A stretch of DNA of 20,757 nt, from positions 1 through 20,757 of IMG/VR virus record IMGVR_UViG_3300042517_001240. The stretch is one strand, 5' to 3'. The notes under the pieces are model-generated. The model searched no databases. It was given only the letters and a program-made list of their open reading frames with translations, and was not told where the DNA came from. The position numbers were made by a program, and so were the translations under genes. Shown here one piece after another: positions 1 to 20,757 of the stretch; position 1 is the stretch's first letter, and the number at the start of each line of letters is the position of its first letter. Source of the DNA: a virus.

Positions 1-3000
1 GTGAACACCGGCACGCCCAGCGCCTTGGCGATCTGCGCGTGCAGGGTCTCATCGGTGAGCTTGCCCTCGTTGTTGAGGAGCATCAGCTTCTCCAGCACGC
101 TCTTGGGCACCCGTTCCTTGCGGGCTTTGACCCCGGCCAACATCTTCTTGATGAGGCTCTCGCGCACTTTCTTGGCCTTGGCGGTGAACTGCCGGATCGC
201 CTGTTCGGCCAGCTTGGTGGCCTGTTTGTTCTCCATCCCGAAGTTGACCAGCATCCCGACGATCTTGTTCCGGGCGTTCCCCGGGTTCTCCGGGCTGAGC
301 ACCAGCGCGTCGCGCAGCTTGGTGTTGAGTTCGGTGAGCCGTTCGGGCGTGAGTTTGAGGGAGCGGAGGTAGTCTTGAATCTCCAGCACCGTCTCCGCGC
401 CGAGTTTGCGTTTCACCTTGGCCAGCTCGGCCTGGAGCGCGGCGATGTTCTCGTAGGCTGCGGCCAGCTCGGGCCCCATATCCTTGGCTGCCGTCCGGGT
501 AACGCTCTCGGCAAACGATTGGATGCCTTCGGGCGTGGTCTTGGCGATCGTGGAGATATACCACAGGGCCCGCGCCGGGGACGTGAGGTTCTCGGCCATC
601 TTGATCCGCACCTGGGTGGCTTCGGCGTGGCGGTCCATGGCTTGGAGCCGGAGAGCGACGTGATGCCCCAGCGCGAGCGTGTTCTCGTCGGCCTTTTTGC
701 TGTTCATGAACAGATCCTTGGCCTTGTCCACCCCGGCGGTGTCGATTGTCTCGTTGGCCTTGGCGTTGACTTCCTCGGCGGTGGTTGCCCTGTAGAAACT
801 CTCCACGTTGTCGGAGACCGAGGGCGTCACCTCCAGCATCCGGCGCACCGTCTCCACATGGCCCCGGCGTTTCTCCGGGGACGCGGCGGCGGCTTCGGTT
901 TGCGCCTGCGATGGCACCTTGGAAAATCGGATCTCCTGCGGCTTGGAGCCGTCGGGATTGGTGGTCACCACGGCCCCGTTTTCTTCGAGGATCTGAACAA
1001 GGTTCTCGTCGAAGACGACGAAGTTAGAAGTTCCGCTGCCGCCGTCTCGGCTGTTTGCGTCGAGGTAGCGGATGCCTGGGACTCCAAAAGAATTAAGATA
1101 TTCTGAAGCGGCCTTATCTCCGCCTAACATTTTCGTTAGTCCCCAATAAATTCCGACTCCGGTCCCCACTCCTCTGTCAGTTTTCTTCCAAGCAAACCCG
1201 GGGGCACCAGTTGATTCTGTTAGTCCTTTTGGGTGTGGCTCAATGAACGGCTTCAGCGCCATCCTAACCGTCTCCGGCTGTTCGCTCAGCGGCTTGTCCC
1301 AGTCCAGAAAATCCGCTTCATCGGGCAGGAGCTCGACGGTGTAGATGTTGCCCGCACGGGGATGTGTGATTCTGTTGTCTTGTTTCCATTTTTTAAGGCG
1401 TTCGTGTGCCTTATTATTTGGAAAAGGTGCGTCTGGTGCGGTGTTGGTAATTGCTGCTTCTAGGTTTCCGTAGTTTTTGAGTTGTTCGAGCGCAAATCGG
1501 TCATCGTCTGACAATCCACGGACGGAGTTGATGGGCTTGCCGTCGATCAACATTTGGTCCGAATCGACATAGCTTAGGTTGTTTCGGTATTGATCCGCAA
1601 CGGCTTGATTCTGCGCAAAGTACAGCCCCCATCCGTAAGCCTGCGAACCTTCCCCTGTCCCAATCTTTGCTGTGCTAAACCGGTCCACTTTGTGGGGCGT
1701 GCCGTGAAAGGCGCGCATGGAAAACCGGATCCCGTTCGGATCGGAGCGCCCGGACTGCACCCGGTTCCGTGCGGCGTTGAGCAACGCCACAATGTCGCCG
1801 TCGGTCATGCGGAGCTTGGGGAACACCTCGCGCAGGAGTTCGCGGATCTTGGCGATGGCGCGGGCGACAATGCCTTGGCTGGGAATTCCCGGCTCGGTTT
1901 GGCGGGCGAGATATTCGGTGACCACGTCGGCCCGGCCTTGCGGGGTGGCCACGTTGGCCTGGTAGTCGCGGGCGATCTGGGAAAGCTCGGCTTTTGGGAT
2001 CCGGGTGTAAACGCCATCGACGATGCTGTTGAAAACGCGGCGGCTCTTGGAGGTGAGCACGGCCCCGAGTCCGTCGTGGCCCACGGTTTCGTGGAGCGCC
2101 ACCTGTTGGGCCCGGGTTTCAAACGGGATGCCAAACTGGGCGGCGCCCTGGGCGATGCCGGACGCCACGAGATGCACGCGGCCCCCGAGGAAGAACCCTT
2201 CCACGGCGCGACCGGCGGCGGCTTCGGCGCGGACCAGGTCGCCGCCCACCCCGGCGGGAATGGCGTCGGGGCTGGCGTGCCAGACGGTCGAGGGGTTCAT
2301 ACCCGCCCGGGAGAAGAGGGTTTTGACTGAGGCCTTGGCTTGGGTGAGGACGCCGGGCGGGAGTGCCGGGGTGTCGGCCGTGGCGGTTTGTTTGGAGAAC
2401 GGCATCCCGGCCATGGATTCCTCGGCGCCCATGTTGGTGAGGGCGGCTCGGGGTTCTTTGTTGGTCCGCATCCACTGATCCACCAGGCGGAACACGTCGT
2501 CGGCACCGGCCACATCGAAGCCTTCTTCGCGCAGGCCCTCGGCGACGGTGTCCATGGAACGGGCTTCGTCGTCGAAGAGGTTCTCGAAGAGGCGTTTGTT
2601 GCCGAAGCGTTTGCGGGCGCCTTGGCGTTCCTCGATGAGCATGGCGAGTTCGCCGGACCATTCGCCAAAGTGGCGGCTTTTCTTGGAGGGTAGCCCGCCG
2701 ATGCGGCGCAGGGCGTCGGCGAGACCGACGGTGTTCTCTTCGTTGACGGCGTCGAGCTCGGCTTGGAGCTCGGCACGGTAGGCGGCTTCGGCTAGCTCGG
2801 CTTGGGTGGGTTTGCGCGGAGGGGGCGTGGTTACGGGCTGGGCGTTGGTGGGTCCAGCGGGCTGGGCAACGGGTGGCGCAGTTTCTGCCTGCGGTGTTTG
2901 TGCAGGCGGTTGCTCCGGCACCAGTTGCACGCGTTGTTGTTCCGGCAGTGCGGGTCGAAGCTGCGACTGTCCCGGTAAGGGCGCTTGGTTGTTCTGCTCA

Positions 3001-4631
3001 TTGGGCTGCGGATCGGTCGGATCGGACGGATTAGACGGATCGGTCGGATCTGGCTGCGCCGTTGCGGGTGCAGCTTGCGCGGCCACCGGGGTGGGCGTTG
3101 CCACCGGGGCAGGCGCTGCCACCGGGGCGGGCACCGCCTGCGCTGCGGGTGCCGTGGCAAAGAGCGCGGCTTCCTCGGGCGTGAGCTCCGTGGCACCCAC
3201 CGAAAGCGAAGCGAGGTTTGCGGGCGCAGGCGCGGCGGCTTGGTCGCCTGGCTGCGGCGTGGCAAACCGTTGCGCCACCCTGCCCACACCGGCGGCACCG
3301 CCCGTCATCATGAAACCCCCGAGCGCCTCCAGGGCCCCGGCCTTGGCAATCTCCATCGGGTTGAGCTGCTCCTGGCTGATCACCTGCGAAGCCGTCTCCT
3401 GCAACGAACCCGTCACCCCTTCGCCCGCCGTGCCTTGCACGATCGCCCGGCCCACCCCTTGCGCCGCCTTGCCGGCGGCGAGCTTCTTCATTGCACCCGC
3501 CACAATCCCCCCGCCGATCGGCTCCAGGCCACCGGACACAATCCCGTTGAGTAACCCCCTGCGGATCGCCTCGTCCTCATCCACCCCCTTGGCGCGGTTC
3601 TTCTCGTAAGTGTCCTGGTAAGTCTGCGCAAACGCCTGCGCGGTTCCCAGCGCGGGGCCCACCCCGGGCACCAGAAACGGAGCCACCGACTGCACCGCGC
3701 TCCCGGCCACTTGCGGCACCGTCTCAGCGAAAAACTCCCCTGCATAAGCCGGGTTGGGCGTGAACCGGTCCTCCGCATCGGCCACCACCGACCGGCCTGC
3801 TGAGCGGATAGCATCTGGCACATCCAGAATCTCCTTCGACGAACCGAGCGTGGCCAGCCGTTGTTCCAGCTCAGAGAGCCGGGCGTCTTTCTGCGGGAAA
3901 TCCGGCGCGGCCTTCGCCTTGGCGATGATCTGGCGCAAACTGCGCTCCTCGGCGGCGGCCTCCTGCGGAGTGCCCGTGCCGTTCCATGCCGAAACCACCT
4001 GAGCGCCCAGCGTCCCGAGCCCTTCCACCGCCTTGCCCAGCCCGGCCTCGGCCGTCTGCGCGAACGTCGAGAGCCCCGAACGGATCCGGCCCGTGCCGGT
4101 GTCCCCGTCGAGTTTCTGAGCGGGCGCAGGGTCGAGCAACTCAAAGTCCAAATTTCCTGAGCCGTTGCTCATCTGCCCGATCGCGGAATCCAGCGCCGCC
4201 ATGCGGGCATTCGCCTCCGGCCGGTTCTGCCCGGCCACATACACATCGATCACCGGCTCCTTACCGCCGGACGCCTTCCGGCTCTTCACCGCGCCGCCCG
4301 TGTCATGAGCGATGAACACCCCGTCCCTGTTCGGCGTGAGATCCGCCAGCGCCGGGATCTTCACGCGGCTCCCGTAAGGAATGACCTTGGGATCGACCGC
4401 GATCGTCACGCCTTCCTGCGACTGCCGCTTGCCCGTGAGCGGGTTCTTCCGGGCGGACTCCGAGCCGTATTGATCCTCGTGATTGTTGTAAACCGTCACC
4501 CGTGCCCGGCCACCGCCGAACGATGTCGGCAGACTGGGATCAAACGGCGGCTTGTCCGATGTCGGCAGGCTTGGATCGAACGGCGGCTTGTCGTCAAACG
4601 GCCGGCTCGGATCATAGGGAGGCTTTTGCAT
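1..4631 (-). CDS. Giant polyvalent virion protein (3D domain, HExxGH, ADP-ribosyltransferase), C-terminus cut by window edge
   Basis: One minus-strand frame stays open from the ATG at 4631 to base 1, at least 1543 residues with no stop. Residues 3-37 are a proline-rich repeat. Residues 43-140 resemble the 3D domain of MltA-type lytic transglycosylases, with the three aspartates in AVDP (D80), AHDTGG (D110) and IDVY (D129). Residues about 295-455 are Gly/Ala-rich and hydrophobic and could insert in membranes. A Pro/Ala/Gln linker follows. HETVGH at 847-852 looks like a zincin metallopeptidase motif. Residues 973-1220 match the ART-PolyVal ADP-ribosyltransferase family: FHGTPH (H976), IGTGEGSQAYGWGLYFA (Y1004) and a closing NFVVFDE segment. 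The rest is helical and charged. The gene starts 2 bases after the previous stop. By analogy with phage polyvalent proteins it is probably packaged and injected. The ART call is strong, the 3D call good, the peptidase call tentative. Confidence 0.9.
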   Translation of the reverse strand, partial: MQKPPYDPSRPFDDKPPFDPSLPTSDKPPFDPSLPTSFGGGRARVTVYNNHEDQYGSESARKNPLTGKRQSQEGVTIAVDPKVIPYGSRVKIPALADLTPNRDGVFIAHDTGGAVKSRKASGGKEPVIDVYVAGQNRPEANARMAALDSAIGQMSNGSGNLDFELLDPAPAQKLDGDTGTGRIRSGLSTFAQTAEAGLGKAVEGLGTLGAQVVSAWNGTGTPQEAAAEERSLRQIIAKAKAAPDFPQKDARLSELEQRLATLGSSKEILDVPDAIRSAGRSVVADAEDRFTPNPAYAGEFFAETVPQVAGSAVQSVAPFLVPGVGPALGTAQAFAQTYQDTYEKNRAKGVDEDEAIRRGLLNGIVSGGLEPIGGGIVAGAMKKLAAGKAAQGVGRAIVQGTAGEGVTGSLQETASQVISQEQLNPMEIAKAGALEALGGFMMTGGAAGVGRVAQRFATPQPGDQAAAPAPANLASLSVGATELTPEEAALFATAPAAQAVPAPVAAPAPVATPTPVAAQAAPATAQPDPTDPSNPSDPTDPQPNEQNNQAPLPGQSQLRPALPEQQRVQLVPEQPPAQTPQAETAPPVAQPAGPTNAQPVTTPPPRKPTQAELAEAAYRAELQAELDAVNEENTVGLADALRRIGGLPSKKSRHFGEWSGELAMLIEERQGARKRFGNKRLFENLFDDEARSMDTVAEGLREEGFDVAGADDVFRLVDQWMRTNKEPRAALTNMGAEESMAGMPFSKQTATADTPALPPGVLTQAKASVKTLFSRAGMNPSTVWHASPDAIPAGVGGDLVRAEAAAGRAVEGFFLGGRVHLVASGIAQGAAQFGIPFETRAQQVALHETVGHDGLGAVLTSKSRRVFNSIVDGVYTRIPKAELSQIARDYQANVATPQGRADVVTEYLARQTEPGIPSQGIVARAIAKIRELLREVFPKLRMTDGDIVALLNAARNRVQSGRSDPNGIRFSMRAFHGTPHKVDRFSTAKIGTGEGSQAYGWGLYFAQNQAVADQYRNNLSYVDSDQMLIDGKPINSVRGLSDDDRFALEQLKNYGNLEAAITNTAPDAPFPNNKAHERLKKWKQDNRITHPRAGNIYTVELLPDEADFLDWDKPLSEQPETVRMALKPFIEPHPKGLTESTGAPGFAWKKTDRGVGTGVGIYWGLTKMLGGDKAASEYLNSFGVPGIRYLDANSRDGGSGTSNFVVFDENLVQILEENGAVVTTNPDGSKPQEIRFSKVPSQAQTEAAAASPEKRRGHVETVRRMLEVTPSVSDNVESFYRATTAEEVNAKANETIDTAGVDKAKDLFMNSKKADENTLALGHHVALRLQAMDRHAEATQVRIKMAENLTSPARALWYISTIAKTTPEGIQSFAESVTRTAAKDMGPELAAAYENIAALQAELAKVKRKLGAETVLEIQDYLRSLKLTPERLTELNTKLRDALVLSPENPGNARNKIVGMLVNFGMENKQATKLAEQAIRQFTAKAKKVRESLIKKMLAGVKARKERVPKSVLEKLMLLNNEGKLTDETLHAQIAKALGVPVF
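1080..1690. other. Lower-GC island coinciding with the ADP-ribosyltransferase module
   Basis: Within the polyvalent gene this stretch is visibly richer in A and T than its flanks. It uses codons such as AAA, AAT, ATT, AGA, GGA, CCA and TTA that are scarce elsewhere in the window. The boundaries roughly match the ART domain (residues 973-1220). This composition change was read by eye, not computed. Confidence 0.6.
3009..3050 (-). repeat. 9-bp periodic DPT/NPS linker repeat
   Basis: The minus strand repeats GATCCGACC-like nonamers and encodes PDPTDPSNPSDPTDP in the linker of the polyvalent protein. The same nonamer repeat occurs in the N-terminal part of the scaffold-like gene at 20653-20700. 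Confidence 0.8.
3082..3135 (-). repeat. Three 18-bp tandem repeats encoding PAPVA-type linker
   Basis: Three consecutive 18-bp units beginning gccaccgggg on the plus strand (3082, 3100, 3118) encode VPAPVA, APAPVA and TPTPVA inside the polyvalent protein. This is a typical flexible Pro/Ala linker and lies between the hydrophobic region and the enzyme-like modules. Confidence 0.85.
4521..4625 (-). repeat. 36-bp coding repeat (12-residue DKPPFDPSLPTS units)
   Basis: The N-terminus of the polyvalent protein carries two near-identical 12-residue units, DKPPFDPSLPTS (residues 14-25 and 26-37), preceded by a degenerate copy, KPPYDPSRPFDD. The DNA copies are also nearly identical, which suggests recent tandem duplication. 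The segment is probably an extended, disordered arm in front of the 3D domain. Confidence 0.85.
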
Positions 4632-4633
4632 GT

Positions 4634-5392
4634 CTACTCCCAAGTTGCGGTGTTCGCGTTGTAAACGTAGCGGTGACCGCCTTGGTATTGCACCTGCCCG
4701 TGCGTTGGCTTGCCCTTTGCTGTGGGTGCCGGAGTCGCGGACCCGGGCGCAGGAGGATTAACGCCCCAGCCTAACAGCGCACCCACGCCCACGCCTTGGC
4801 TCGGCACCTTCACCGGCTTGCCCCCCATGTAGTGCCCGATCACATTCCCCTGATGATCATAAATCGGCGTTCCATCTGGCTGCATGGACAGAGGCTTGAG
4901 CACCTGCACATTTCCTTGGAACGGGCTGGTCTGTGTCACCAGCACCTCGGTGCCGTCCTGATTGAACTTCTCCGCCCTCGGCGACCACCCGGCCGGATGA
5001 TTCACATCAAACTGCCGGATATCCTCATTCAGTTTCCGCTCCTGCAACCCCTGATTCTGCCGTTGCACCTGATCCAAATAAATCGCATCCGCCTGGGAAA
5101 GAATCTCCCGTTTCTTGGCCAGATTGCCCTTCGCCATCGCCGCGTAATCCGCATCCGAAAGCACCCCCATCTGCGCGTAAGCCCGGGTCTTGCCGTCGAT
5201 CAACGCCGCCTCCTTCTCCAGCCTTTCCCGCTCCTGACCGTAACCCATAATGCCCCCGGCCACGGACCGCCCCGCTTGGGAAATCCCGTCGGCCATGGAT
5301 TGATACCCGGCCAAAGTCGTGCGGGCGACGTTGTCGGCGGAGTTCGCGATGATGTTCCCGCGGTTGTCGTTGACAGAAGGGTTGTATTGCAT
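4634..5392 (-). CDS. Putative internal virion protein, unknown function (252 aa)
   Basis: I do not recognise a family. The N-terminal half (residues about 15-125) is Ala/Gln/Glu/Lys-rich and probably helical, with a glycine-containing stretch AGRSVAGGIMGYGQ near residue 45. The C-terminal half is Gly/Pro/Tyr-rich and ends in a short beta-like tail (HGQVQYQGGHRYVYNAN). It lies directly upstream of the giant polyvalent gene (2-base gap) and 6 bases after the SET gene, among genes that look like internal or ejected proteins. That position is the only ground for the role given here. No enzymatic motif or signal peptide is visible. Confidence 0.8.
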   Translation of the reverse strand: MQYNPSVNDNRGNIIANSADNVARTTLAGYQSMADGISQAGRSVAGGIMGYGQERERLEKEAALIDGKTRAYAQMGVLSDADYAAMAKGNLAKKREILSQADAIYLDQVQRQNQGLQERKLNEDIRQFDVNHPAGWSPRAEKFNQDGTEVLVTQTSPFQGNVQVLKPLSMQPDGTPIYDHQGNVIGHYMGGKPVKVPSQGVGVGALLGWGVNPPAPGSATPAPTAKGKPTHGQVQYQGGHRYVYNANTATWE

Positions 5393-5398
5393 GGCGTG

Positions 5399-5797
5399 TT
5401 ATCGGTGAGAAAGTTTGCGGGCCGCGTCGGCATCGGTCTCCAGCCCCACAGTGAGCTCTTCCCCGGCCGCAATCGGGCGGGCGGCCACGAGCACACTCTC
5501 CCGGTCGTGCCGGGGTGGCGCGTCCTCGATCGCGTTGGGGTCGGCGGCGAAATTCCAGAACCGGGCGTCATCCCCGCACAGCACCAGGGCGCCGGGCCGG
5601 GCCGGGTTCACATAGCAGTAATGCCGGATCCGCCGTTGCACATGGGCAGGGAACCGGCCCACATCCTCGAACTCAAACCGCGTATCGATCCCCCGGGTGA
5701 ACTCCCAGAGCTGTTCCCCCCGGGCAATGTCGCGGGCGGCAAAGAGCCCGATCCCGTGAATCGTGGAGGCCGCGATGAACGTGGGCACTAAGAGCAT
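5399..5797 (-). CDS. SET-domain protein (putative lysine methyltransferase)
   Basis: This is a compact SET domain. HGIGLFAARDI (residues 14-24) matches the first SET motif. FWNFAADPNA (80-89) occupies the place of the RFINHSCxPN cofactor and substrate motif. AGEELTVGLE (111-120) corresponds to the GEELTxDY motif, but the usual final tyrosine is absent, so activity is uncertain; Tyr60 or Tyr62 in HYCYV might compensate. SET proteins methylate lysines using S-adenosylmethionine. I chose ATG 5797 because it leaves the canonical short N-terminus and has GGGGAGG 4 bases upstream. GTG at 5824, with AGGAGGT 6 bases upstream, is a real alternative that adds 9 residues. The gene overlaps the PAPS-reductase-like gene by 10 bases. 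Confidence 0.82.
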   Translation of the reverse strand: MLLVPTFIAASTIHGIGLFAARDIARGEQLWEFTRGIDTRFEFEDVGRFPAHVQRRIRHYCYVNPARPGALVLCGDDARFWNFAADPNAIEDAPPRHDRESVLVAARPIAAGEELTVGLETDADAARKLSHR

Positions 5798-6651
5798 GTG
5801 GCCTCCCCGAAATTCGAGGAGCACGTCGGCACCTCCTCCCCGAAATACGACGCCCGGAGTTCATAATGCGCCACCGTCCCGGACACATTGCGCACCTGCC
5901 GGTTGAGCTTTGGGCAATGCACCACCGGCCCGTTGCGCCGGTCGATACACGCCATGCAGGCCGTCCAGTAATCCGAGTTGGCCGTCTTGTCCGGCAACTC
6001 ATCCCACCCGAGATCATCCCGGTAATACCGATCCGTCTGCACGGGAACGGCGAACCGCTCCGTGTAATCCCAGATATCATCGTCCGTCCAGTGCCGGAGC
6101 GGGAACGCCCCGGTCGGCCCGTGGTCCACCCGGACAAGGTCCGTGTGCAACGGCACCCGCCCGGCGATCTGATCCTGGTCGCTGGACTTGTGCCCGATGA
6201 ACGCCATGTCCCACGGATATTGGAACGTGCCCGTCGGCCGGTGCATGAGATCCGCCAACCCGCACAGGTAAGGTTTCCCCTCCACGGGCGGCAAAATGTT
6301 CTTCGGCACCGAGCATGTCACCGGTTCACCCGTGGGTTTCTGGCCGATCTGGTAATGGTTCGTGAACGCCACGATGCCTTTCCCGTGCCAGAGGCTCACC
6401 GCCACCGGCTGCCAATCCCAAACCGTCAGGTTCCATTCCCGGATCATCCGATCCGCGAACGCATATTTGTGGGGAAACCACGGGTCGCGATGGAACACAA
6501 TGGGCAGGTCCAGCCCCATCGAGCGCAGGAGATGGAGCAGCACCATCGAGTCCTTGCCAAACGAGCAGAGCAAAACGGGGGCGGTGGACTGTTCCAACGC
6601 CTCGCGGATCTGCGCCCGGCTGGCCTCAATCAAATCGTCGAGTCGCGGCAT
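5788..6651 (-). CDS. PAPS-reductase-family (adenine nucleotide alpha hydrolase) protein
   Basis: The 287-residue protein has the PP-loop SFGKDSMVLLHLL at residues 30-42, typical of PAPS/APS reductases and related ATP-pyrophosphatase-fold enzymes. FIGHKSSDQDQIAGR (151-165) and FPLRHWTDDDIWDYT (183-197) fit the conserved mid-domain and the PLxxWTxxDVWxY motif. The ECGLH reductase motif is absent. Instead there is a Cys cluster at C232, C235 and C246 (CMAC, then VHCP) that could bind a metal or an Fe-S cluster. Such proteins are common in phages. Their job is unproven; sulfate reduction, DNA phosphorothioation-like chemistry and tRNA or nucleotide modification are all possible. The gene starts 3 bases after the repeat-rich virion gene and overlaps the SET gene. 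Confidence 0.88.
   Translation of the reverse strand: MPRLDDLIEASRAQIREALEQSTAPVLLCSFGKDSMVLLHLLRSMGLDLPIVFHRDPWFPHKYAFADRMIREWNLTVWDWQPVAVSLWHGKGIVAFTNHYQIGQKPTGEPVTCSVPKNILPPVEGKPYLCGLADLMHRPTGTFQYPWDMAFIGHKSSDQDQIAGRVPLHTDLVRVDHGPTGAFPLRHWTDDDIWDYTERFAVPVQTDRYYRDDLGWDELPDKTANSDYWTACMACIDRRNGPVVHCPKLNRQVRNVSGTVAHYELRASYFGEEVPTCSSNFGEATCS
5802..5846 (-). promoter_or_regulatory. Duplicated Shine-Dalgarno-bearing repeat ahead of the SET gene
   Basis: The 12-base sequence cctccccgaaat (plus strand) occurs perfectly at 5802-5813 and 5835-5846, 33 bases apart. On the minus strand each copy carries GGGGAGG. The left copy sits 4 bases before ATG 5797. AGGAGGT at 5831-5837 overlaps the edge of the right copy and sits 6 bases before GTG 5824. 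The repeat lies inside the end of the upstream gene, where it encodes YFGE and NFGE eleven residues apart. These are among the few convincing Shine-Dalgarno sequences in the window. Confidence 0.6.
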
Positions 6652-6654
6652 GGA

Positions 6655-8229
6655 TCAGAAGATGATGAGCCCGCCCGCGATTGCGCCACCGGCTCCGATA
6701 AGCGAACCTGTCATCGCGCTTTGCCCGGCGGATCTTGCCGCCCCGGCCTGCTGCCGGGCCGCGTCCTGCGCCGTGGCCGCGTTGAGCGCCGCGTTGTATC
6801 GGCTTTCGTCCCGGTTGAGGAACGCCCCGTAAGCCTGATCTTGCAGCCCCGTGAGCATTGTCGGCGTGCTCTGGCTCATGTTGAGCAGGTTGAGCCCGCC
6901 CTGCGTGGCGCCACCCGCGTTGGTGGGTCCGGCCAGAATCTGCTGCGCGGGATCGATCGCCTGGTTCAGTGTCACCGCGTTGGAGAGCAGACCGGCCCGG
7001 TTGGTTTGGAACCCGGCCCGTTGCGCGGCAGCGGCCCGGTTGAGCTGTTCCACGTTGGTGGCGAAGTCGCGGTTCTGCGCCAGCTCCTGGAGCGTCAACC
7101 CCGCGCGCTGCGCCACATCGGAGCGGTTGAGCTGTTCCACATTGGAAGCGAAGTCGCGGTTCTGCGCCAACTCCTGGAGCGTTAAACTCGCACGCTGGCC
7201 CGCCGCGGCGCGGTTCATCTGTTCCACATTGGATGCAAAGTCCCGGTTCTGCGCCAACTCTTGGAGCGTTAAACTCGCCCGCTGGCCCGCCGCGGCGCGG
7301 TTCATTTGTTCCACGTTGGATGCAAAGTCCCGGTTCTGCGCCTGCTCCCCGAGCAGCTGCTGGTTGACTCCGGAGGCGAATCCCCGGCGTTCACCGAGCC
7401 GGGCGCGTTGCGCAGCGTCCCGGTTCATGACCTCCGCGACAATGGCCGGGTTGGACCGGGCCAATCCGCGAGCCGAGAACGCAGCCCGGCTGGCCTGCTC
7501 CACGTTGCGGGCTTCATCGGCGGAGAGCCGGCCACCGAGCGCCAGCTCATCCAGCGCGCTCTGCTGGAGCGCCTGGGAGATCGCGCTGGGCCCTGCCCCC
7601 ATTGCGTTTGTGTTGAGCGACGAAAGCAGCTGGCTGTCTGCGAGGGTGTTTCCAATGACGCTCGGCCCCGCGCTCATCGCGTTTTTGTTGAGCACGGAAA
7701 GCAGCTCGCTGTCCGCGAGGGTGTTCCCCACCGCGCTCGGTCGATTCAGTGAGGCCTCTCTGTTGAGCTCAGAGAGCAGGTCGCTGCGGCCCAGCATGTT
7801 TGCGACATTTCCCTGTCTGTTCGCGGCCTCGGCGGTGAGCGAGGAGAGCAGCGCGTTGGGAGCGTTCGCGGCCTCGCCCAAGGCGGAGGCGGCCTCGTTC
7901 GTGCCTGAGTTGTAACGGTCGAGCGACCCTTGCAGCTCCGGGTTGGCCTTGAACGCAGCGGCCCTGGCCCGTTGGCCGAACTCCTCAAGAAACCCGATCC
8001 GGTTCGAGCGCGATGCGGCGTCGGCCTTGTCCATCGCCGCCGCCGTGGACGCAATCGCCTTGGGCGTCTGCTTCAGCATCGAGGCGAAACTCTGATCCTG
8101 CCGTTTCTGGAACGAGTCGAGCAGGCTGTTGGCGTAATCCTGCGCGCTCTGCTGGTTGCCAGAGTCCTTGTAGGACGGCGCACTTTTCCTCTTCTTCTTC
8201 TTTGGCGAGAGCGTGTATTGGCGCGACAT
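6655..8229 (-). CDS. Repeat-rich internal virion / ejection-type protein (524 aa)
   Basis: The protein starts with a lysine cluster (KKKKRK, residues 10-15). It continues as an Ala/Asn/Gln/Leu-rich, almost wholly helical chain and ends in a glycine-rich hydrophobic segment, SLIGAGGAIAGGLIIF (509-524). Two repeat arrays are present: four units of about 25 residues (131-229) and four units of 29 residues (297-412). No catalytic motif is visible. Composition, length, a membrane-active tail and position after the tail genes fit an internal virion or DNA-ejection protein of a short-tailed phage. A structural fibre shaft is a less likely alternative. The ATG lies 4 bases after the upstream stop. 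No family was recognised with certainty. Confidence 0.85.
   Translation of the reverse strand: MSRQYTLSPKKKKRKSAPSYKDSGNQQSAQDYANSLLDSFQKRQDQSFASMLKQTPKAIASTAAAMDKADAASRSNRIGFLEEFGQRARAAAFKANPELQGSLDRYNSGTNEAASALGEAANAPNALLSSLTAEAANRQGNVANMLGRSDLLSELNREASLNRPSAVGNTLADSELLSVLNKNAMSAGPSVIGNTLADSQLLSSLNTNAMGAGPSAISQALQQSALDELALGGRLSADEARNVEQASRAAFSARGLARSNPAIVAEVMNRDAAQRARLGERRGFASGVNQQLLGEQAQNRDFASNVEQMNRAAAGQRASLTLQELAQNRDFASNVEQMNRAAAGQRASLTLQELAQNRDFASNVEQLNRSDVAQRAGLTLQELAQNRDFATNVEQLNRAAAAQRAGFQTNRAGLLSNAVTLNQAIDPAQQILAGPTNAGGATQGGLNLLNMSQSTPTMLTGLQDQAYGAFLNRDESRYNAALNAATAQDAARQQAGAARSAGQSAMTGSLIGAGGAIAGGLIIF
6994..7341 (-). repeat. Four tandem 87-bp (29-residue) coding repeats
   Basis: Units cover residues 297-325, 326-354, 355-383 and 384-412. 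The unit begins AQNRDFASNVEQMNRAAAGQ and continues RASLTLQEL. Units 1 and 2 are identical in protein, with small DNA differences. Unit 3 changes to LNRSDVAQRAG, and unit 4 diverges after RAGF. A degenerate fifth copy may lie upstream at residues 268-296 (MNRDAAQRARLGERRGFASG). Confidence 0.95.
7543..7839 (-). repeat. Four degenerate 25-residue coding repeats
   Basis: Residues 131-155, 156-180, 181-205 and 206-229 align on the pattern N-x-N/E-A-x(3)-PS-x-I/V-GNTLADS-x-LLS-x-L. The two central units share GNTLADS followed by LLS. The outer two are degenerate (NVANMLGRSDLLSEL and AISQALQQSALDEL). Confidence 0.8.
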
Positions 8230-8233
8230 AACG

Positions 8234-8698
8234 TTAGAGGCCGAGTTTGGCGCGGCGTTCCGCGATCTCCGCTTCCAGCTCGCGCAGTTTCGCGGCTTCC
8301 TCGGCGCGGCGTTTGTCGGCGAGCGGTTTGCCGGCGAACGCGAGCAGGTCCAGCACGGCGTCGAACGTCCCGGTCTTCACCGCCTCGGGCACGACCGTCG
8401 CCGCCTTCTCCAGCACCTGGGCTTGATAGGCGAGATTGGCGTCGAGCTCGGCCTGGAGCCCGGCGCGTTCGGCCTTGAGCGCGGCGGCTTTGTCGGCTTC
8501 AAGCGCGAGCGCGTCGGCGTGGGTTTGGTTGAGCGCGGCGATCTGCGCGGCGTGTTCGGCGCGGAGCGCGGCGTCGTAGGCTACCAGGGCCCGCTGGATG
8601 TCGGAGGCGAGCTGAGGGTTGTTGGCGATGGTGTCCGCCACTGCGCCGTAGTGTTTGCCGTCGACGAGAACGCTGTGCGGGGATTCTAGGGTAATCAT
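8234..8698 (-). CDS. Coiled-coil protein of the tail region (154 aa)
   Basis: A short N-terminal segment (MITLESPHSVLVDGKHYGAV) is followed by long Ala/Glu/Leu/Lys heptads at residues about 33-98. A middle segment comes next (TFDAVLDLLAFAGKPL), and then a second coiled coil at 126-152. The start is fixed by an ATGA overlap with the fibre gene upstream; a longer reading frame to 9022 only shadows that gene. Position right after a tail-fibre gene suggests a fibre-associated structural protein or assembly chaperone, but no family was recognised. Confidence 0.82.
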   Translation of the reverse strand: MITLESPHSVLVDGKHYGAVADTIANNPQLASDIQRALVAYDAALRAEHAAQIAALNQTHADALALEADKAAALKAERAGLQAELDANLAYQAQVLEKAATVVPEAVKTGTFDAVLDLLAFAGKPLADKRRAEEAAKLRELEAEIAERRAKLGL

Positions 8699-9855
8699 AC
8701 GTTGAAAACAAAAATGTCGATGGGCTGGGTCGCCAGAGAGACAGAGGCGGCGCCGTTGTTGCCATACCAAACCTGAACAGAGTCGTTTGTGTTGCAGCGG
8801 GCCATGAGGGTCACGCTCGTTTGGACCTCCTGAATGTGCACCATGGCCCCAATGGTGGCTCCGGTTACTGTGTAGTTTGCTAGGTGGAATGATCCGGCAG
8901 AAATGGTTGTGCCGGTCTGCGTGACGGTCGCCTTGAGCACGCTTTTTAACGGAATGGCCGACGCGCCGATCTTCAGCGGCACGTTGACCTGGAGCGGAGA
9001 AGTGTCGCTCCGCATCGCGCATTGCCAGATCCCGCGCCCTGCGCCTGCCGCGGTGGTCCCGGTGAAATAGAAATTCCCGTCAGACCCCATGGTCATGTAA
9101 GGCATCGTTCCGCTCTGGTCGGTCCAAACAATGCCCGTGTTATTGGCTGTGAGCCGCACGTTGCCGGAAACGCTGAGCTTGTCCGGAGTAACGGTCGTCC
9201 CGATCCCCACGTTGTTCCCGCCTGCTGCTCCTGTAAGGAAAAGCATTGGCGCGTTGACGTTGCTTCCGTTTGTGGTTCCCAGCGCCACGCCGTAATTCAG
9301 CCCCGCCGGGTTGAACTCGATAAACCCTTGGGGCGTTGCGTCGGTGAACTGCTGCAAGCGCGTGGTGGTGGTTTCCCAGTTTGTCCCCGTCGAGTTCCGC
9401 ACCTGCAAAAGTCGGAGCGTCGAGACATTCCCGTTGTTCCACTCTGCGCGGAACATCTCCGCGCTCGATCCTGCGGAAGATCCGACAACCCCACCGGCAA
9501 CATGGAGCTTGGCCTGCGGCACGCCTTGGTTGATCCCGCAGTTGTTGTTCACGTCCCACGATGCGAGCGGAAAGCCGACGTTCTCAGCGTCGTTTGTGCG
9601 CGCAAGGCCGACGGTTCCGCTTGTCTCAACATACGCCCGAAATCGCTTTTTATCCGTCGGCGCGGAGAGGTTCGTGAGCTGCAAGAACGGATAAACGCCG
9701 TCCGTAATCCGCAACGAAGTGAAATTGGTATCCGACGCCACCACGCTCCCCGGCGAAAGCGCCACCGTCGGCTGCCCGAGTTGGTTGAGCTGCGCCTTGC
9801 TGATCGGCCCGGTGACGCTCGAAAGATTGATGCCTGGTGTGACTGTGAGAATCAT
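8695..9855 (-). CDS. Tail fibre / receptor-binding protein
   Basis: The 386-residue protein is rich in Gly, Thr, Asn and Ser, like trimeric phage fibres. It carries the fibre signatures AKLHVAGG and NNVGIGTTVTPDKLSVSGNV, which occur in shafts of many phage fibres and S74-type tail proteins. No S74 intramolecular chaperone domain is visible; the end (residues about 290-386) looks like a beta-sandwich tip. The N-terminus (ISKAQLNQLGQPTVALSPGS) may be the virion anchor. ATG overlaps the nozzle stop as ATGA, so the two are probably translationally coupled. It probably recognises the host surface; the receptor cannot be read from sequence. Confidence 0.82.
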   Translation of the reverse strand: MILTVTPGINLSSVTGPISKAQLNQLGQPTVALSPGSVVASDTNFTSLRITDGVYPFLQLTNLSAPTDKKRFRAYVETSGTVGLARTNDAENVGFPLASWDVNNNCGINQGVPQAKLHVAGGVVGSSAGSSAEMFRAEWNNGNVSTLRLLQVRNSTGTNWETTTTRLQQFTDATPQGFIEFNPAGLNYGVALGTTNGSNVNAPMLFLTGAAGGNNVGIGTTVTPDKLSVSGNVRLTANNTGIVWTDQSGTMPYMTMGSDGNFYFTGTTAAGAGRGIWQCAMRSDTSPLQVNVPLKIGASAIPLKSVLKATVTQTGTTISAGSFHLANYTVTGATIGAMVHIQEVQTSVTLMARCNTNDSVQVWYGNNGAASVSLATQPIDIFVFNV

Positions 9856-11630
9856 GCGAGTGGTTTCAGGGTGCGCTGCGGGTTGGTGGCCTCCACCGTG
9901 GTGGCCGTCACCGCGCAGACGCCTTGCGTGTTGCTGATCCGCATCGACACGGACCGCGCCGTGGCCGACACCGCCCGTTTCTCAAGGAGCGTTTGCCGGG
10001 CGTCGAAATCCACCCCGGGCGGGTCGAGCAGAATCGGCACGGCCAAATCCACGGAGTAATCCTCCCGCCGCGGCGTGGCGTGATCGAGCGCGGCGTTGCT
10101 CGGGTTCCAGTCGGGCACACCGTGCGTGTAGTAGCGGGTGCGGCTTTTGGTGATGGCCGGGCCCGTGCTCGTCGTCTCGTTGTAGCCGTCCGTGAGCAGG
10201 TCCACCATCACACTGGGCGCCCACGTCTCGAGGTTCACGCTGATCCGCCGAAGCACTTTGCTTTGGTGATCCGAGAAGGTGTATCCCCGGGTCTCCAGCT
10301 GATCCGCGATCGGATACGCCAGCCCGCCCACCTCGTCGTTGGATCCGTCGTAAAGCAGGAACGCCCCGCTCTGCGCGTTGCCGCCCGGATCGCTGTTTCC
10401 GGAGAACATCCCGTAAAGCCGTTTCTCCCCGCCCCAATCCGAGACGAGCAGGTTATCGAAATAAATCCCAGCCGGGTCCGTCGGTGAAACCGTGGCCGGT
10501 CCCTGATGAATCCCCTGCCAAGCGTCCGTCACGGTGTCATACACCAGGAGCGCATTGGGCCGGGTGGCCGTGTCGAGCGGCACGGCGAGATAGTAGTAAC
10601 GCCCCACCACCGCGCCCACACACAATCCCCGGGCGCCCGGGTTGATGCGCCGAATCAACGGCGTGATGGGATCGGAAACGGGCGTGGCCGCCGTCTGCAA
10701 CCGATCCGCGATGATCTGTTGCACCCGATAAACCCCGTTGCTGGAAAGGAAGAACACGTCGCCGCCCACCATCGCCACCGAACGCCGGGCCGCGCAGCCA
10801 ATCTCCCGGTTGATCTGGTCGAGCCGGACCTGGGAGAGATCCCCGTAAATGTTGGAGATGATGTGAACGCTCTGGTCCTTGAACACGAGGAGCGCGTTGT
10901 TCGTGAACGGGAACACGCGCACAATCGCGTCGTCGGACCCGGAGTTCACGTTGAAATCGTTCAGCGCCGCGTCAAACGCGGTGTAATCGAGCAGGTCGGA
11001 CACGGCGATCTGATCCCGTGAATACGGCACAAACAACCGGTTGCCCATGAGCTCGGCCGTGGTCGCTCCGGGAATCGGGCTCAGGCCCGCGCCCGGGTCC
11101 ACCTGCGATGCCTCCACAAACGTCGTCGTGAGTTCGCCGTCCCACACCCAAGGCACCTTGCCCGGACCCCGGAACAGGAGCACCTGGTTGAACGCCTGCA
11201 CCACGTCGATCGGGTCGCTGGTCACCAGCCCCGTGTACGGGATCGAAAACCCGGAGCTCCCCTCCCGGGTGAAATAAGCGCGATCGCTCCCCGCGTGGAC
11301 GAGATATTCCACGCCGTCCGGATCCGAATAAATCCCCGACCCGCGCACAAACGTGACAGCGGGCAAAGCGGCCGTGCCCACGCGGTGTTCGGCCGGCATC
11401 CGGAACCCTTCGCGGGTGGTGGCGGATCCGTTCACGAACACCTTGTTCAGCGCAGCGGCGCACCAGCCCGGCTCCAGGCGTTCCCGGGCCAGCTTGGTGT
11501 TGACCCCCACAAACGACGCATCGCCGTCCACGCGGCTCTCGGCATCGTTCTGTGTGGCTCGTTCGTAACGCACGGGAAAGACAGTGAAAGCGGGGCGGCA
11601 CCGCTGGCAAAGCTGCGGTGCGGAAACCAC
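9852..11630 (-). CDS. Tail nozzle / packaged-DNA stabilisation-like beta-propeller protein
   Basis: The 592-residue protein resembles the nozzle group (P22 gp10-like, T7 gp12-like). DASFVGVNTKLARERLEPG near residues 39-57 fits the usual opening of the fold. NRLFVPYSRDQIAVSDLLDY and NNALLVFKDQSVHIISN are typical propeller strands, followed by FFLSSNGVYRV and YYLAVPLD. It would close the tail below the adaptor. The start is GTG at 11630; there is no ATG between it and the in-frame stop at 11655-11657, so a later GTG is the only other option. The first 35 residues (with CQRC) are unusual for the family. A 24-base gap separates it from the portal gene, which is in the same frame. Confidence 0.82.
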   Translation of the reverse strand: MVSAPQLCQRCRPAFTVFPVRYERATQNDAESRVDGDASFVGVNTKLARERLEPGWCAAALNKVFVNGSATTREGFRMPAEHRVGTAALPAVTFVRGSGIYSDPDGVEYLVHAGSDRAYFTREGSSGFSIPYTGLVTSDPIDVVQAFNQVLLFRGPGKVPWVWDGELTTTFVEASQVDPGAGLSPIPGATTAELMGNRLFVPYSRDQIAVSDLLDYTAFDAALNDFNVNSGSDDAIVRVFPFTNNALLVFKDQSVHIISNIYGDLSQVRLDQINREIGCAARRSVAMVGGDVFFLSSNGVYRVQQIIADRLQTAATPVSDPITPLIRRINPGARGLCVGAVVGRYYYLAVPLDTATRPNALLVYDTVTDAWQGIHQGPATVSPTDPAGIYFDNLLVSDWGGEKRLYGMFSGNSDPGGNAQSGAFLLYDGSNDEVGGLAYPIADQLETRGYTFSDHQSKVLRRISVNLETWAPSVMVDLLTDGYNETTSTGPAITKSRTRYYTHGVPDWNPSNAALDHATPRREDYSVDLAVPILLDPPGVDFDARQTLLEKRAVSATARSVSMRISNTQGVCAVTATTVEATNPQRTLKPLA

Positions 11631-19764: not shown

Positions 19765-20757
19765 TTATGCCCGGCTTGCTGTGGCCAGGAAGAACCGCTC
19801 GATCGCGTCGGAGCTGCCGCCGCTCTGGAACACTTCTTCAAGGGCCTTGGTCCGCACCAGTTTGTCGGTGGAGACTTTGGGCACGGGCGTTTTGGTGACC
19901 GGCGCAGCAGGTGCGCGCTCGGGTTGTTTGATGGGTGTGGGCTTGGGCGTTTCGCCGCGCTGCATCCGGGCCCGGTGACCTTCGAGCCATTCGCCCACGA
20001 ACACCTCGGGATCGGCGAAGCGCCGAATCTCGGGCAACGCCTGGAGCACTTGCTGGAAGAGCCGGTGTTCGTCGCTCTTCGTGTCGAAGAGCGCCGGATA
20101 CTCCGTGCGCGCCAGCTCGATTTGTTCGGTGCGTTGCCGGAGAAACTCCGCTCGCGCCGGGGCGTGTTCGCTGAGCACCTCGTCGCACCGCGAGAAATGG
20201 CTGCGGATCTCCGCCGCCGTGGCTACTCGGGTGCCGCCGTTGCCGTCGGGCACTTCCACGGGATCGCCCGTCTCCGGGTCGACACCGTCCCAGTGCGTGA
20301 TGGCCCAGGCGCGGATGCGTTTGGCTCGGGCGATTTCTTCCTGGAGTTGCGCGGCGTTCTCGACGTGGGCCAGCGGGGTTTCCGCAGACGTCGGCACGGG
20401 CGCCTCGGCAGGAGAGGCCGGGGTGGTTTGGGTGAGCTTGGCTTCCAGCTCGGCGATGCGGGCCTCGCGTTCCGCCACCGCATCGGACACCGCTTTCGCG
20501 GAGGTCTCCTCGGCAGTCTTGGCGCGGGCGGTGAGCTTGTTGATCCGCTTGAGCATCTTGGCGATGGCGCGCGGATCGTTCTCGGCGATGTCGTCTTCCT
20601 CCTCGGGCTGGGCCTTCTGTTCTGGCTCGGCTTCCGGGGTCGGCTCCTGAAGATCGGTCGGATCAGGCTGATCCGTCGGATCGGTCGGATCTTGAACATC
20701 GGCCGGAGTGGTCGGATTTTCTGCTGTGGTTTGCTGGCCGAGAAACTCGCGTTCCTG
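19765..20757 (-). CDS. Scaffolding-like capsid assembly protein, N-terminus beyond the window
   Basis: The frame is open to the right edge, so the start lies outside; 330 residues are visible. The first 60 are acidic, Pro/Asp/Thr/Glu-rich and disordered, with a DPT repeat. A helical coiled coil follows (KMLKRINKLTARAKTAEETS, then AEREARIAELEAKLTQ), and then a helical region with AQLQEEIARAKRIRAW. The basic C-terminus has PVTKTPVPKVSTDKL and a last helix, SDAIERFFLATASRA. Low-complexity acidic start, coiled coil and basic C-terminal helix directly upstream of the capsid gene are typical of phage scaffolds. ATG 20556 is an internal methionine, not needed as the start. A fused protease further upstream cannot be excluded. 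Confidence 0.85.
   Translation of the reverse strand, partial: QEREFLGQQTTAENPTTPADVQDPTDPTDQPDPTDLQEPTPEAEPEQKAQPEEEDDIAENDPRAIAKMLKRINKLTARAKTAEETSAKAVSDAVAEREARIAELEAKLTQTTPASPAEAPVPTSAETPLAHVENAAQLQEEIARAKRIRAWAITHWDGVDPETGDPVEVPDGNGGTRVATAAEIRSHFSRCDEVLSEHAPARAEFLRQRTEQIELARTEYPALFDTKSDEHRLFQQVLQALPEIRRFADPEVFVGEWLEGHRARMQRGETPKPTPIKQPERAPAAPVTKTPVPKVSTDKLVRTKALEEVFQSGGSSDAIERFFLATASRA
20653..20700 (-). repeat. 9-bp periodic DPT repeat in the scaffold-like gene
   Basis: Aspartate codons (GAT) recur every 9 bases, at 20653, 20662, 20671, 20680, 20689 and 20698, giving DVQDPTDPTDQPDPTD. The nonamer is the same type as at 3009-3050 in the polyvalent gene 17 kb away. Confidence 0.85.

Follow-up and report, generated by a model that had tools for sequence, protein, structure and literature searches.

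The question raised by this locus is whether the tandem repeats lying inside one putative virion gene differ in number between closely related phages, and what such a difference could mean for the protein. The window, i.e. the whole stretch of DNA analysed here (20,757 nucleotides, positions 1 to 20,757 of IMG/VR virus record IMGVR_UViG_3300042517_001240), carries a 524-aa gene with two repeat arrays placed on opposite sides of a conserved core. The explanation favoured here, with reasonable rather than strong confidence, is that this gene encodes a mainly alpha-helical ejection protein of a short-tailed phage with an SU10-type capsid, in which both arrays have been lengthened by in-frame duplication. 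The parts of the gene are the following:

6655-8229, minus strand: repeat-protein gene (524 aa), coding for a probable ejection/internal virion protein, present in five IMG/VR contigs
7591-7890, minus strand: second array, about four 25-aa units of the LLSxLNxxAxxAG type, single copy in relatives
7630-7851, minus strand: stretch of the second array seen in the window allele only, 74 residues (127-200), missing in single-unit relatives
7342-7572, minus strand: conserved core, residues 220-296, common to a distant family of proteins (L007-type)
7081-7341, minus strand: window-only block of 87 residues (297-383), equal to 29-aa units 1-3, missing in single-unit relatives
7255-7341, minus strand: 29-aa unit 1
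7168-7254, minus strand: 29-aa unit 2, same protein as unit 1
7081-7167, minus strand: 29-aa unit 3, 23/29 residues as in unit 1
6994-7080, minus strand: 29-aa unit 4, the closest to the lone unit of the relatives (26/29)
6661-6717, minus strand: Gly-rich hydrophobic C-terminal segment, residues 505-523, Kyte-Doolittle 19-residue mean 1.62

The initial annotation had described four near-identical 29-residue repeats. Four 87-base units, numbered in protein order, do span 6994-7341 and the first three are alike, but the fourth shares only 19/29 residues with unit 1, so that the array consists of three similar units and a diverged one. Units 1 and 2, rightly said there to be identical in protein, agree in 83/87 nucleotides and 29/29 residues, with all four mismatches at codon position 3. 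The agreement drops to 68/87 nucleotides and 23/29 residues between units 1 and 3, to 58/87 nucleotides between units 1 and 4, and to 63/87 nucleotides and 19/29 residues between units 3 and 4. TRF reported the array at 7031-7342 (period 87, 3.6 copies, 88% matches, score 428), and the self-match of the gene at lag 87 (best 261-base stretch) reached 222, whereas none of 1000 codon shuffles exceeded 111. That annotation does not list the second array, whose units are of 25 aa. TRF placed it at 7582-7740, with weaker copies beyond (to 7890); its copies were counted by eye on sequence segments, in the window and in the relatives, and the only close pair is formed by the two middle copies (60/75 nucleotides). 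The N terminus of the protein is lysine-rich, and the hydrophobic C-terminal segment is a possible membrane segment.

The repeat gene proper was found in five related IMG/VR contigs. One of them (3300042448_001764) carries a gene identical to that of the window and is 99.96% identical to it over 14,154 bases, while the other four (3300042569_002692, 3300034102_003688, 3300044642_000851 and 3300044634_003656) carry a single 29-aa unit. These four contigs represent two distinct alleles, 3300044634_003656 differing from the other three, whose sameness was established across the gene for one pair (L003 and L004) and across 1050 bases for another (L003 and L005). The number of 29-aa units thus varies between close relatives, being four in 2/6 genes and one in 4/6, with no intermediate number among the six genes examined (three alleles). 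Such copy-number variation had been predicted from the window alone, and the comparison of relatives that was then proposed as a check bears it out.

In both single-unit alleles the lone 29-aa unit agrees with unit 4 of the window at 26/29 positions and is accompanied by one 25-aa unit, whereas the window has four and about four, respectively. The orthologues and their surroundings are otherwise alike, with 82-84% amino acid identity outside the extra blocks and portals 99-100% identical to that of the window; one single-unit allele has one basic residue fewer around residues 10-14, and the L006 protein has six additional residues near its C terminus. At the DNA level, blastn pieces of the window matched the relatives mostly at 85-96% identity, and at 77-85% inside and beside the repeat gene. 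Codon position 3 holds 102/168 and 114/193 of the differences in this gene. Replacement changes are not uncommon, a point that tells against the favoured explanation: in plain counts, the codons that differ from L003 are 73 synonymous and 56 replacement ones, and those that differ from L006 are 79 and 65.

Every record with the repeat gene is an assembled contig, and the array could in principle have been over-expanded in the window or collapsed in the relatives during assembly. This is highly improbable, given that the identical gene occurs in a second contig, that the longest exact repeat inside the 29-aa array (27 bases) is short for a collapse, that the unit of the relatives resembles unit 4 and is not a mixture, and that the second array differs as well. 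Scans of IMG/VR viral contigs and of genome contigs yielded no sixth contig with the repeat gene proper; the genome contigs gave one match, to the core only, in a Verrucomicrobia MAG (L102). Five of ten records searched whole share the portal yet gave no repeat-gene match, three of these five being under 10 kb.

A wider family was reached through the conserved core. With residues 220-296 as query, 125 matching stretches were obtained and 80 loci kept, in which 75 ORFs match the L007 protein (phmmer; 80 of the 125 stretches). These L007-type proteins share with the window the core motif and the place between a nozzle gene and a large protein, but their N-terminal half is unlike that of the repeat protein and they lack the 29-aa array. 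Four distant loci have the nozzle first, then two small genes, the core protein, a gene of 204-451 aa and a gene of 707-1184 aa. The repeat protein matched the L007-type profile with probability 87.4 (E 3.7e-06), and a second comparison, run both ways, gave 84.0 and 79.6 (pairwise E up to 1.5e-05), the match covering only 162-177 aligned columns; the next best of 37 profile targets reached 2.4 for the window profile and 4.7 for the L007-type one. The large proteins compared less firmly (probability 85.1 one way, 19.5 the other), and the nozzle profiles gave a very high score that denotes kinship, although it is not independent because their members may overlap. Taken as profile similarity, these data support a relationship between the repeat protein and the L007-type family. 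With two other alleles and a distant family that lack the extended 29-aa array, it is likelier that the window lineage gained units than that the others lost them.

Expansion does not appear to recur across the wider family. Self-repeat scores exceeded the best of 30 shuffles in 16/61 distinct proteins of at least 300 aa, but only the window allele (352 vs 71) and L080 (87 vs 43) stood far above their shuffles, the other proteins listed scoring at most 50 against null maxima of 40-68. The array of L080, an L007-type protein, is its own: it is made of 11-residue units in the C-terminal part (about residues 410-451) of a core-family gene at 4520-6037 of that locus, and is an expansion unlike that of the window, in a gene of the same kind. 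As a separate observation, four of the 15 distant relatives aligned (L061, L085, L026 and L018) share an extra C-terminal domain (CWVAREVYG...) not present in the other eleven. The equation of the small genes of L007-type loci with T7 gp13/gp14, suggested by position, found no support in hhalign.

The gene neighbourhood indicates what kind of protein this may be. The main neighbours are:

9852-11630, minus strand: nozzle/head-closure Hc3-like protein, 592 aa, upstream synteny anchor with matches to PHROG, the Hc3 of phage C75C1 and the L007-type family
5788-6651, minus strand: PAPS-reductase-like gene, between the repeat gene and a 252-aa gene
5399-5824, minus strand: SET-domain gene, between the repeat gene and the 252-aa gene
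3-4643, minus strand: large downstream protein with a 3D domain, 1547 aa in the window and running past its end

The order in the window is nozzle, fibre-like gene, small gene, repeat protein, two accessory genes, 252-aa gene and 1547-aa protein. The best PHROG of the nozzle gene was 5107 'amidase' (E 2.8e-10), followed by 578 'head closure Hc3' (E 7.9e-09), and the 386-aa gene upstream of the repeat gene, which had no significant family match, was taken as the fibre gene. The 1547-aa protein contains a Pfam 3D domain above the cut-off (E 4.5e-08), an ART-PolyVal match below it (24.9 bits, cut-off 31.2) and a match to PHROG 873 'endolysin' (E 1.4e-13). It was assigned as a large ejection protein by domains and position and not by homology to T7 gp16, so it can be called gp16-like by position only. 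The major capsid protein matched Pfam SU10_MCP (PF17236, E 5.3e-37, 128.3 bits against a cut-off of 24.1), which places the phage, as judged from this profile, in the SU10-type capsid lineage. Of the annotated records, C75C1 (OQ984151) matched portal, nozzle and capsid best, with 27.2% identity over 95% of the query for the portal, 32.0% over 99% for the capsid and 26.9% over 47% for the nozzle; C75C1 has no match to the repeat protein, and no literature on this phage was found.

The repeat gene sits between a nozzle/tail tube gene and a large enzyme-bearing protein, which in short-tailed phages is the place of ejection proteins. In T7 the internal virion genes 13-16 come after gene 12, and the neighbourhood also resembles that of SU10, where gp20-24 follow the nozzle gp17 and the needle gp18. 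One report describes SU10 gp20-24 as ejection proteins that are present in virions and gone after genome release (PMC9509320). By this analogy of position the repeat protein would function as an ejection protein, as the initial annotation had assumed in naming it an internal virion protein. No library searched gives it that label, and neither T7 gp13-16 nor SU10 gp20-24 has detectable sequence similarity to it: in hhalign comparisons with T7 gp10-17 and SU10 gp9, gp11 and gp16-24 the best probability was 2.4 (SU10 gp22). Ejection-protein families are known to diverge past sequence detection. The repeat protein had no match in Pfam, NCBIfam or PDB sequences, a 39-row profile picked up just two PDB sequences, neither of them significant (E 0.26 and 0.37), and PHROG returned sub-significant rows only (best E 0.025). 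Nor did tblastn find a match in phage records, whether the query was the window protein, the protein of a single-unit relative or the L007 protein.

The same position would also suit a tail needle, or a different external protein of the tail tip, with a helical shaft lengthened by the repeats, because the gene comes soon after the nozzle, in the place of the SU10 needle gene gp18, and needle shafts are known to differ in length between phages. Nevertheless, SU10 gp18 reached a probability of at most 0.6 and was outside the best four of the 37 targets. Moreover, a trimeric coiled-coil shaft should show heptads, and with the 29-aa array as shaft no such periodicity is seen (hydrophobic moment 0.037 at 3.5 residues/turn over residues 297-412). 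The Gly-rich hydrophobic C terminus would also better suit a membrane-entering protein. A needle is accordingly considered unlikely.

The structural predictions are consistent with a mainly helical ejection protein, the reading preferred here, but leave its architecture loosely drawn. AlphaFold (18-row alignment) modelled the 524-aa protein as mostly helical, with a mean pLDDT of 48.5 and a pTM of 0.21; the L007 protein (39 rows) reached 59.5 and 0.33. A single helix was predicted for residues 261-415, with pLDDT of 83-90 over 301-380 (units 1-3 nearly whole) and 49-72 over 381-410 (unit 4). At 3.5-3.75 residues/turn the array (residues 297-412) has a hydrophobic moment of just 0.030-0.084; the value is 0.213 at 4.14 and highest, 0.36, near 3.22. 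Within every 29-aa unit the amphipathic face of the second half is turned by about 170 degrees relative to the first. The low moment and the face flip in every unit argue against a coiled-coil rod. The flip could reflect two short helices per unit, or one helix with partners on opposite faces, and the unbroken helix may be a default of the modelling, given the low moment at helical periods and the weakness of the model beyond units 1-3. Among the top seven Foldseek chains compared by VIA-align, five had Z of at least 2 (3.7-5.2); these are generic long helices (Vipp1, PspA, axoneme), a likeness that is no evidence of kinship. The helical repeat proposed in the initial annotation hence agrees with the predicted helix, on which the array is taken as helical, and is tempered by the low overall confidence of the model and the missing coiled-coil periodicity. 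A rod or channel formed during ejection is possible on such a model.

In the mechanism that is envisaged, the repeat protein, presumably packaged in the virion, would leave the head ahead of the DNA and line its path across the cell envelope. In-frame duplication would have raised the 29-aa units from one to four and the 25-aa units from one to about four, lengthening putative helical arms with the core left undisturbed. The reach of the protein, or the length of the tube, might change as a consequence: 87 residues correspond to about 130 Å if fully helical (1.5 Å/residue). For comparison, a preprint on phage DEV describes a tube-like complex, about 300 Å long, built by two ejection proteins (PMC10925440).

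Two readings of the arrays diverge at this point. The first sees a neutral length polymorphism, produced by slippage or unequal recombination in a tolerant stretch and having no functional effect; it is compatible with an ejection protein and is a rival only as to the meaning of the array. The single-unit phages, with portals 99-100% identical to that of the window, manage without the array. In addition, DNA identity falls across the array, toward the strongly diverged fibre-like gene, from 0.97 to about 0.81 for L093 and from 0.92 to 0.80 for L095; read in the direction of transcription, identity to relatives climbs again through the repeat gene, being 0.79-0.82 at 7301-7600, immediately before the 29-aa array, and 0.84-0.97 at 6701-7000. 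The third-position differences between units 1 and 2 suggest, on the other hand, that the protein sequence of the repeat is kept, a point weakened by the fact that recent conversion would be expected to leave the same pattern. Neutrality is thus a serious contender, if somewhat short of an even chance. The second reading views the two arrays as paired arms of a single helical assembly that would be obliged to change length in step, a molecular ruler matching the tube used for ejection to how wide the host envelope is; the arrays have indeed risen jointly from one unit to about four (+74 and +87 residues). This is improbable.

Repeat lengthening is by itself genuine but of a rather common sort. 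A survey of literature titles on repeats in ejection proteins, internal virion proteins and tape measure proteins found none on repeat number in an ejection protein. If the repeat protein is an ejection protein, the one- and four-unit phages, with nearly identical portals, would constitute a natural length series, suited to the question of whether the length of a DNA-delivery tube is set and, if so, whether it limits host choice. If it is not, the arrays would represent another lineage-specific repeat expansion in a virion protein.

Some features of the surrounding DNA deserve mention in their own right. The stretch 4898-7093, which includes the SET-domain and PAPS-reductase-like genes, is 90-94% identical in DNA to L095 and L093. 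Over the fibre-like gene (8801-9700, minus strand) identity to relatives ranges from 0.41 to 0.97 per 150-base bin, this being the most diverged part of 4898-10000 (lows of 0.41 for L095 and 0.55 for L093), and the divergence may reflect host-range gene exchange beside the repeat gene. Finally, short tandem repeats also occur in other genes of the window: Pro/Asp-rich ones in the 1547-aa protein (4521-4625 and 3009-3050, minus strand), and DPTDP-type repeats (20652-20691, minus strand) in a gene upstream of the capsid gene.
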